DNA of 20,874 nucleotides from a virus. The notes below the pieces were generated by a model that was not told the origin of the DNA, did no database searches, and was given only the letters and a program-made list of their open reading frames with translations. This document shows positions 1 to 1,975 of this stretch, piece after piece. Made by a program: the position numbers and the translations under genes. Position 1 is the stretch's first letter. Each line of letters opens with the position of its first letter. The stretch is from positions 1-20,874 of the IMG/VR virus record IMGVR_UViG_3300042468_000834; one strand, 5' to 3'.

Positions 1-261
1 AGCCTTGCTCTGCTTAAACACCTTGGCAATTTGCGAGTTGCTAAGGTTGGCAGCAAGAAGCTCAGCAGTGGCATAGCGTCTAAGACGAGTGCTTTCCTTA
101 TCAAACATTTCGCCTGGCTCTGCCCTATTGCGAAGCCTGTCCACTTGCTCAACAGTTAAGCCTGCTTTGGTCAATACTTCCAAGCCATATTTCAGCAAGC
201 TTGCTTCGTCCTCAAAGCTATGCTCAGGGACACTGCGGTTCTTTCTATGGGAAGGAGCCAT
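1..261 (-). CDS. Partial N-terminal HTH protein (possible small terminase)
   Basis: The ATG is at 261-259 and the frame stays open to the window edge, giving the first 87 residues of a protein whose C-terminus lies outside. The N-terminus is basic (APSHRKNRS). Residues from about 63 read RRYATAELLAANLSNSQIAK, then VFKQSKA, which has the spacing of a helix-turn-helix (hydrophobic helix, turn at LSN, second helix SQIAKVFKQS). The start shares one base with the stop of the upstream gene (TAATG), so translation is probably coupled. Phage small terminase subunits and transcription regulators both begin with such HTH units; the position beside tail-type genes makes a terminase-related role possible, but only the HTH is seen. 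Function is inferred. Confidence 0.6.
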   Translation of the reverse strand, partial: MAPSHRKNRSVPEHSFEDEASLLKYGLEVLTKAGLTVEQVDRLRNRAEPGEMFDKESTRLRRYATAELLAANLSNSQIAKVFKQSKA

Positions 262-575
262 TAGCTTTTAGGAAGAGAGAACACAATGCTTTCTTTCTGA
301 GACAGTACAGTAAAGTCTCCCATGTCGTCAGCCAGTTTCTTGCGTTCTTTCAAGGTGATCTCCAGCTCCCTGATTTCTTCCCCATAGTCCTTCTCTGCAC
401 GCTTTTGAATGTGAGCCTTGCCCTCGTCAAGGGAAATGCTGTCTAGTCCTTCATCGCGCATTGCTTCTATTAGGGTAGCCTTCAGCTCTTTTTCTTGAGC
501 TTCAAGCTCTTTCTTCTGCGCAACGATTTGAGACAGTTCGTTCATCAAATCGTAAATGATGCTAGTGGGTTCCAT
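261..575 (-). CDS. Small coiled-coil phage protein
   Basis: This is a 104-residue protein starting at MEPTSIIYDL. I preferred this ATG to an in-frame TTG at 626 because the TTG would run into the upstream gene. Residues 10-45 (LMNELSQIVAQKKELEAQEK and onward) and 65-85 (EEIRELEITLKERKKLADDM) have heptad-like hydrophobic spacing and many E/K/Q residues, so two coiled-coil helices are likely. A central GLDSISLDEGKAHI resembles the beta turn between helices in Gam-like and Gp157-like phage proteins, but this is a shape resemblance only. It is coupled by TAATG to the next gene. No signal peptide or membrane segment is seen. Function is unknown. Confidence 0.6.
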   Translation of the reverse strand: MEPTSIIYDLMNELSQIVAQKKELEAQEKELKATLIEAMRDEGLDSISLDEGKAHIQKRAEKDYGEEIRELEITLKERKKLADDMGDFTVLSQKESIVFSLPKS

Positions 576-594
576 GGGAGAAAGAGGAAGTCCG

Positions 595-831
595 TCAATT
601 GTCGCCTGTAGCGAAGCCCTTGTCAATAAGGCTCACCATTTCTTCGTAGCTGCCTCGCCAGTGGCGTTCACCATCAGCAGGATTCTTGGCGCCATAAAGC
701 ATACGAGCTTGAGGGAGAGGGCCTCTTGCTGGGGTAACGAAGCCGTGATGCTGCAACACTTCAATGAAGATGCCGTTGTGCTCCAAGGAGGGAAGCCTGT
801 CGGGAGCGTGTGGGTGGAGAGGCTTAAGCAT
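595..831 (-). CDS. Hypothetical 78-residue protein
   Basis: The ATG at 831-829 opens a 78-codon frame. The protein begins MLKPLHPHAP, is rich in H, P and G, and ends in an EEMVSLIDKGFATGDN helix-like tail. It sits between the jelly-roll gene (24 bases upstream) and the coiled-coil gene (19 bases downstream) on the same strand, consistent with one transcript. No recognised domain, signal peptide or membrane span is present. The pattern LEHNGIFIEVLQHHGFVTP suggests an alpha/beta fold. Competing frames on the opposite strand lack protein-like composition, so this is the best reading, though the family is not recognised. Confidence 0.5.
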   Translation of the reverse strand: MLKPLHPHAPDRLPSLEHNGIFIEVLQHHGFVTPARGPLPQARMLYGAKNPADGERHWRGSYEEMVSLIDKGFATGDN

Positions 832-855: not shown

Positions 856-1548
856 TTAGAGGGTTTCCAAAGCAATGGCAAAGTCACGAAAGTCAGTCTT
901 AACACCATCTAACGCATTGCCATAGAAACCAAACTTTGGCTTGACGGTATCAGCTAGTGTTTGTCCTGCTTGTGATCCTGCATTTATTGTTCCATTCCTT
1001 GAACCAATAAGCTTACCAGTAGTATCGTCAATAACGCGAATGAAACCATTGTCCCCTGCCTTAAATTGCAATTGCCAATCGTACCATTTCTTATTTTCTA
1101 GCTTCATTGATAACGCGCCTCCGGCACTTCTTGATACTACTGCCAGTGTTCCATTTTGTATGCGAATACCGGCAACAGGGCTAACGATTGGCTGCCAGAA
1201 TTGCAAAACATAACCAGTTACTTTGTCGTAGTTCCTTCCTTTCACGCGAAATTCTAGGTCAATGTTAATCTGTCTTCCAAAAGCAAAGTTCTTTGGTACT
1301 GCTAATTCTGAGCGGTCAGGATAACGAGGATCATCAGTTGCGAAGAAGTTAATAAAGTCTTTGCGTTGACGAATGAAGCCTCCTTCTGTTGCTTTTCCAC
1401 TAAGCCTTGGAAATAGCATTTTTTCCCTATCTTTCTTTGCGGGAATATAGTTGCCGCCTTCGCCCATGTTATTTGTTGCGTCACCAACGATTCTTCCCGT
1501 GATGGGGTCGAGATCGAACACTGGACGCATGCGAGGCTTTTTACTCAT
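856..1548 (-). CDS. Jelly-roll polysaccharide-lyase-like protein
   Basis: This is a 230-residue protein starting at MSKKPRMRPV. The frame continues far upstream but that stretch is low in protein-like character and contains the stem-loop repeats, so the internal ATG with GAAGGA about seven bases before it is chosen. After a linker with DPITGRIVGDATNN, the main domain (about 75-230) has RSELAVP, a strand pair ending VTGYVLQFWQP, IRIQNGTLAV, a KKWYDWQLQFKAGDNGFIRV element and a closing KPKFGFYG. This order (RSEL, QFWQ, KWYDW, FGFY) matches the concanavalin-like fold of heparin-lyase/alginate-lyase-type enzymes, where it lines the sugar groove. In a phage it would suit a tail spike or capsule-degrading part. 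Catalytic residues cannot be assigned; it could equally be a binding module. Confidence 0.55.
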   Translation of the reverse strand: MSKKPRMRPVFDLDPITGRIVGDATNNMGEGGNYIPAKKDREKMLFPRLSGKATEGGFIRQRKDFINFFATDDPRYPDRSELAVPKNFAFGRQINIDLEFRVKGRNYDKVTGYVLQFWQPIVSPVAGIRIQNGTLAVVSRSAGGALSMKLENKKWYDWQLQFKAGDNGFIRVIDDTTGKLIGSRNGTINAGSQAGQTLADTVKPKFGFYGNALDGVKTDFRDFAIALETL

Positions 1549-1612
1549 GCCGAGAATCCTTCGTAGGACGCCGTTGGATGGTGTCTTAAAGAGTCTAAGC
1601 AAAGGAAAAGTG

Positions 1613-1671
1613 AAAGAAAGCACCGTTGAAAAAGCTCGCTTGGGGCTCGCCTGCGCGTCGGTGCTTTCTTT
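1613..1671. repeat. Stem-loop repeat, copy 1
   Basis: A 13-bp perfect stem, AAAGAAAGCACCG at 1613-1625 pairing with CGGTGCTTTCTTT at 1659-1671, encloses a 33-nt loop. Positions 1627-1654 in the loop are identical to 1722-1749 in copy 2. The stem sequence differs from copy 2 but is fully self-complementary. No poly-T tract follows on either side that would make it an ordinary terminator. Confidence 0.75.
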
Positions 1672-1711
1672 GCGAAGGTTTATGAAGAAAGTAGTTTGGA
1701 AGGGATGGTTA

Positions 1712-1764
1712 AGAAGCGCTCTGAAAAAGCTCGCTTGGGGCTCGCCTGCTCGTATCGCGCTTCT
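1712..1764. repeat. Stem-loop repeat, copy 2
   Basis: An 8-bp perfect stem, AGAAGCGC at 1712-1719 with GCGCTTCT at 1757-1764, encloses a 37-nt loop that carries the same 28-nt core (1722-1749) as copy 1. Similarity extends past the right stem (TGCGAAGG in copy 1, TGCGAAAGG in copy 2). The copies are 95 bp apart, which is not a multiple of three. Confidence 0.7.
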
Positions 1765-1975
1765 GCGAAAGGGGATGGTGAACTGCTGCTCAACATTCCC
1801 CTCCCCATCGAAGCCACCTTCTCGTCGGGAGCGCCGCAGGGCGTAGATGCCTGAGCTGCTCGTTGACGTGCCGCAGCCCCCAGGCGCGTTTCTGCGCGAG
1901 AAACTGCTCGGGACGATTTTAGAGCCACTGTCAAATCTCCAGGGACGCTTTGACTGACTGGCACACTGGGCGGGC

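Follow-up and report, generated by a model that had tools for sequence, protein, structure and literature searches.

Two short stretches of this viral DNA share a core that is identical base for base and sit in stems that differ, which raised the question of whether the core was simply copied or is kept as a structure, and what such a structure would do. The window, that is, the whole stretch of DNA analysed, is a virus record of 20,874 bases. Comparison of the two copies confirmed that positions 1627-1654 equal 1722-1749 at every base, as the preliminary description had it, and revealed that the identity stretches to 1627-1658 and 1722-1753 with one mismatch. When up to three mismatches were allowed, the 28-nt core was found at only two sites in the whole window and at none in 100 shuffles. 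The two stems given earlier, 13 bp between 1613-1625 and 1659-1671 and 8 bp between 1712-1719 and 1757-1764, were exact; the loops that they close are 33 and 37 nt long, respectively, and not 28 nt as first stated. The peptide QASPKRAFS was indeed read in two minus-strand open reading frames in differing frames. The functional reading strand is the minus strand, where the region forms the 5' leader of an operon that runs leftward. The reported absence of a T tract was accurate for the plus strand only; on the minus strand, a tail poor in G and rich in pyrimidine comes after each stem. Folding also favoured the minus strand, with z-scores of -3.2 (minus) and -2.0 (plus) for the copy at 1613-1671 and of -1.9 (minus) and +1.2 (plus) for the copy at 1712-1764. 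In the minus-strand folds, the outer stem enclosed the same inner hairpin in both copies. The features of the leader and of the genes behind it are as follows, in the order of the minus-strand RNA:

1916..1921, minus strand: likely -10 promoter box TAAAAT (comparison of leaders)
1821..1912, minus strand: conserved 5' leader domain, ACGCGCCUGGGG ... CCUGCGGCGCU..CGAC, upstream of the hairpins (upstream sequences of 18 leaders)
1707..1771, minus strand: leader hairpin 1, the 5'-most in the minus-strand RNA (covariance model and fold)
1757-1764 and 1712-1719, minus strand: arms of the 8-bp outer stem of hairpin 1, AGAAGCGC/GCGCTTCT
1727..1747, minus strand: inner hairpin, copy 1, AGGC-GA-GC-CCCAA-GC-GA-GCUU (MFE fold and alignment of 54 copies)
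1610..1678, minus strand: leader hairpin 2 (covariance model and fold)
1659-1671 and 1613-1625, minus strand: arms of the 13-bp outer stem of hairpin 2, AAAGAAAGCACCG/CGGTGCTTTCTTT
1632..1652, minus strand: inner hairpin, copy 2, identical in sequence to copy 1 (repeat comparison, fold and alignment)
856..1551, minus strand: first gene of the leftward unit, 231 aa, no family
595..831, minus strand: small conserved gene, 78 aa, homologue of S-CBS4 gp084
261..626, minus strand: gene resembling phrog_6244
1..261, minus strand: first part of a gene for a helix-turn-helix protein, truncated at the end of the window (orthologue at L008 2479-3285, phrog_645)

Orthologous leaders carried TACAAT, TAGAAT or TAGGAT at the same place as the TAAAAT of the window, ahead of CGUCCCG, and the box is likely the -10 element of a promoter; a scan for consensus promoters did not return it. 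The domain at 1821-1912 directly followed this box, was common to most orthologous leaders (L008, L021, L022, L101, L105, L108, and others), and is probably structured as well. Hairpin 1 was flanked by a conserved UUUCGC directly upstream and by UUAACC directly downstream, and its inner hairpin combined a tandem G.A internal loop with a CCCAA loop. Hairpin 2 was preceded by CCUUCGC and followed by a tail rich in pyrimidine. A short open reading frame ahead of the hairpins was suspected and was inconsistent from leader to leader.

Searches among relatives revealed that the pair belongs to a new, strongly conserved family of RNA hairpins of a probable cyanobacterial virus. Both copies of the exact core were present in two near relatives, and the distant L003 carried the core with a different stem. 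Homologues of the 78-aa gene led to 28 loci, and in many of their leaders there were hairpins that kept the inner plan and differed in the outer stem. A covariance model built from nine hairpins (R1) matched these leaders and an unexpected second locus in the same phages, and scored hairpins 1 and 2 of the window at 78.9 bits (E 3e-15) and 81.4 bits (E 8e-16), respectively. A wider model (R2), with matches counted at E < 0.001, gave hairpin 1 66.1 bits and identified 54 hairpins, 52 of them distinct, on about 25 uncultivated viral contigs. The preliminary description had taken the stems to covary under selection for structure rather than to reflect simple duplication; further copies were present in the relatives, their stems covaried, and this view was strongly supported by the 52 distinct hairpins. 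A looser DNA pattern returned 39 contigs, mostly by chance, with five new true ones retained by the covariance model, and a simple structural descriptor, which gave chance matches in S-CBS4 and G018, was used as support only. The modules did not behave as a protein-coding repeat: all three sense frames were open in 6 of the 52, and none in 3. With gathering and relaxed thresholds alike, Rfam gave no match to the element, whether in the window itself or at 16 related loci; the scan matched only tRNA and abiF, at other places. The abiF RNA (RF03085) lay directly ahead of a tRNA gene on a phage contig (L133 6431-6538). An exact 20-nt core had no match in the cellular genomes searched, leader and hub DNA (the hub is defined below) showed no similarity to cultured phages, and no description of the element was found in the part of the literature covered. 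Leaders of the S-CBS4 type, which R2 did not match, contained a hairpin of similar plan with weak covariation (7 cells vs 3.4), and its kinship to the family is possible, if tentative.

Each module consists of an outer stem of 7-13 bp, free in sequence, a conserved internal loop WCGMGC, and a tandem-G.A inner hairpin with a CCCAA loop, the consensus of the inner hairpin being RRGC-GA-GC-CCCAA-GC-GA-GCUU. One to three modules occurred in tandem, usually behind a likely promoter box. Almost no variation was seen at the CG.G of the internal loop, at the loop's first C or at the G that closes it. Among the 52 distinct sequences, changes on both sides of a pair were found in 180 cells compared with 56.7 after shuffling, all nine outer pairs covaried, and 88.6% of the cells were paired compared with 64.3% after shuffling, with slid controls all far lower; because the sequences had been aligned by fitting them to the model, this alignment is biased towards the structure. 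The smaller seed alignment, made from sequence only, gave the same sign (19 cells vs 8.7). Up to four Watson-Crick pair types were found per position of the outer stem. These stems vary widely yet are almost purely Watson-Crick, with G-U in 4 of 439 cells, which is unusual for an RNA helix. On the leader strand, the inner helix contained 55 G-U and 17 A-C cells, the latter mostly at a single pair, within one class of hairpins whose inner stem was shifted in the alignment. Since A-C on one strand is G-U on the opposite one, these counts favour the leader-strand RNA, that is, the minus-strand RNA in the window, as the molecule that would fold. To judge from this pattern of changes, the element is almost certainly a structured RNA.

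In hairpin-bearing records longer than 60 kb (G001, G009, G025, and G031), the hairpins occupied two loci only, the operon leader and a hub about 14-16 kb from it. The hub carried hairpins on both strands. One strand led into a ribonucleotide reductase operon (Ribonuc_red_lgC), and the other had no conserved gene downstream, barring endonuclease-like genes inserted in some phages. Genes judged by eye to resemble HNH or endonuclease VII were located at L065 5440-6009, L132 3912-4433, L133 1673-2188, and L137 13468-14013, which suggests repeated insertion at the hub. An AT-rich palindrome, GATTCTTRATAA ... TTATTRAGAATC, was also seen by eye to recur in the L105, L138, and L003 leaders, at hub loci, and at L020 5507-5545 (S-CBS4), and is perhaps an operator. 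Behind the operon leader, the gene at 856..1551 was found in the two closest relatives only, and in other relatives the 78-aa gene directly followed the leader. The L008 homologue of the gene at 261..626 had weak matches to the Sipho_Gp157 and Mu Gam-like families. The phrog_645 counterpart in S-CBS4, gp086, is annotated as “Rnase E”; Pfam gave GerE/HTH matches only, and the name looks doubtful. A search of cellular genomes with the small leader gene gave no match. The 78-aa protein was 55% identical to S-CBS4 gp084, and the primase/helicase of the window shared 57% identity with its counterpart in the Synechococcus siphovirus S-CBS4. Because of these two resemblances, the host is likely cyanobacterial. 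A terminase operon was considered as the unit served by the leader and was rejected, as terL of S-CBS4 is located elsewhere.

Strong intrinsic terminators were found within the units after the leaders, 33 in sense compared with 15 in antisense orientation and about one in shuffles, where four sense sites were counted twice owing to the near-identical units of L008 and L009. They were concentrated in the early regions, and few were found in the structural genes of these phages. In L065, L067, and L137, and probably L132, a terminator ended no more than about 20 nt from the start codon of the reductase. In the first three, this gap is too small for a promoter, so the polymerase must read through the terminator for the reductase to be expressed. 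The terminators in question lie at L065 1496-1519, L067 4079-4096, and L137 11339-11355, with no clear ribosome-binding site before the start codon. The position in the leader, the copy number and the size of the hairpins resemble those of HK022 put, and terminators follow downstream; for these reasons, we favour a cis-acting leader RNA of the put or nut kind that would control antitermination or elongation, a reading to which we give slightly less than an even chance. The nascent hairpins would bind either RNA polymerase during elongation or an elongation factor of phage or host, and the polymerase would become resistant to the intrinsic terminators within the unit; that the transcript is made, that it has such a partner and that antitermination results are what we infer from the arrangement. 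The excess of terminators, counted in units of element-bearing phages without a matched element-free control, fits antitermination. However, a similar excess would arise from small separate early gene cassettes that each have a terminator, and some of the terminators are bidirectional. A role in leaders alone does not explain the second hub strand, which runs opposite to the reductase operon and has no conserved gene downstream, and several copies, mostly of one hub type, have U-rich tails and could themselves terminate transcription.

A regulated terminator is the main rival. The outer stem would act together with the tail as an intrinsic terminator of low strength, and whether transcription stops in the leader would be decided by a factor that binds the inner hairpin. 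The 3' arm and tail of the hairpins were pyrimidine-rich and nearly G-free, with a T fraction of 0.42-0.56 in three of four groups, and the nearly pure Watson-Crick outer stems are as expected of a terminator stem. Genuine U tracts were limited to a minority of tails (L018, L134, and the minus strand of L067); most had fewer than five U in eight positions, one group was C-rich, and the loops of 30-37 nt were far above those of terminators in the same genomes. Such an attenuator is rather unlikely, and it is kept as the main rival because the tails are rich in pyrimidine and poor in G.

Ranked next, and also unlikely, is an RNA that binds a protein without affecting elongation, as a multi-copy site for a regulator, a decoy for a host factor, or a 5' element for stabilisation or processing. 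A constant inner part on free stems, repeated, is typical of protein-binding sites and sponges, and a stand-alone RNA could be the product of the hub strand that lacks a conserved gene downstream. However, the modules are placed where transcription units start, and no partner protein was identified. A DNA-level element, that is, a packaging site, a replication origin, or a cruciform recognised as DNA, would account for the near absence of G-U from the outer stems and for the presence of arrays on either strand of a single locus, but it is improbable in view of the excess of G-U in the inner helix on the leader strand, the location of the hairpins in leaders, and the position of terL elsewhere in S-CBS4. 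Of the roles proposed in the preliminary description, a structure within a transcript, with a regulatory or binding role, is in line with the data, whereas a short mobile palindrome of the REP or MITE type, suggested by an identical 28-nt core between differing flanks, is very improbable, as the copies were confined to two orthologous leader loci with none elsewhere in records of 30-70 kb, and the exact core was unmatched in the cellular genomes searched.

The put- or nut-like reading can be carried further, to a new class of processive antitermination RNA in a clade of probable cyanobacterial siphoviruses, by which terminators in the early and nucleotide-metabolism units would be passed, with overlapping arrays on opposite strands of a single locus that could switch or couple two transcripts; in this full form, it is possible but doubtful. 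To our knowledge, few RNA-directed antitermination systems have been described, and put is the textbook case. If the hairpins are put-like, the strategy would extend to viruses whose hosts belong to a very different group, and more than 50 natural variants would be available for structure-function work. Even with another binding factor, they would constitute an undescribed regulatory RNA that is widely shared and marks where transcription begins in these phages.

Structured RNAs of cyanophages are represented in Rfam by manA, wcaG, and PhotoRC-II, some of which lie in 5' UTRs (PMC2864571). Unlike these, the element in the window and in the 16 related loci matches no Rfam model. As in RNAs of the CsrB/RsmZ type, there are many hairpins in which the apex is constant and the stems vary; those multi-hairpin RNAs have a conserved GGA loop, which is missing here, and the hairpins here are located in leaders. 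The lambda nut sites, which consist of boxA and boxB and act with the N protein, share with the present hairpins a conserved apex on a stem, a place at the start of a transcription unit, and repetition within the genome, although the hairpin here is much larger. The put RNA of HK022 binds the zinc-binding domain of the β' subunit and antiterminates without a protein factor. It is about 65-70 nt long with two stem-loops, and each genome has two sites, which lie in leaders of phage transcripts with intrinsic terminators downstream and, for putR, a distance of about 270 nt to the start site (PMC9378689). In contrast to the two adjacent stem-loops of put (about 70 nt), the module described here is one nested hairpin, about 65 nt long, whose outer stem is free in sequence; it is present once or as two or three copies in tandem, is found at one locus on opposite strands as well, comes from phages of a probably cyanobacterial host, and has a putative function. 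Like put, it would be a structured RNA of similar size in phage leaders, tens to hundreds of nucleotides past the promoter, with more than one site per genome after phage promoters, whose boxes were assigned here by comparison, and with intrinsic terminators downstream.
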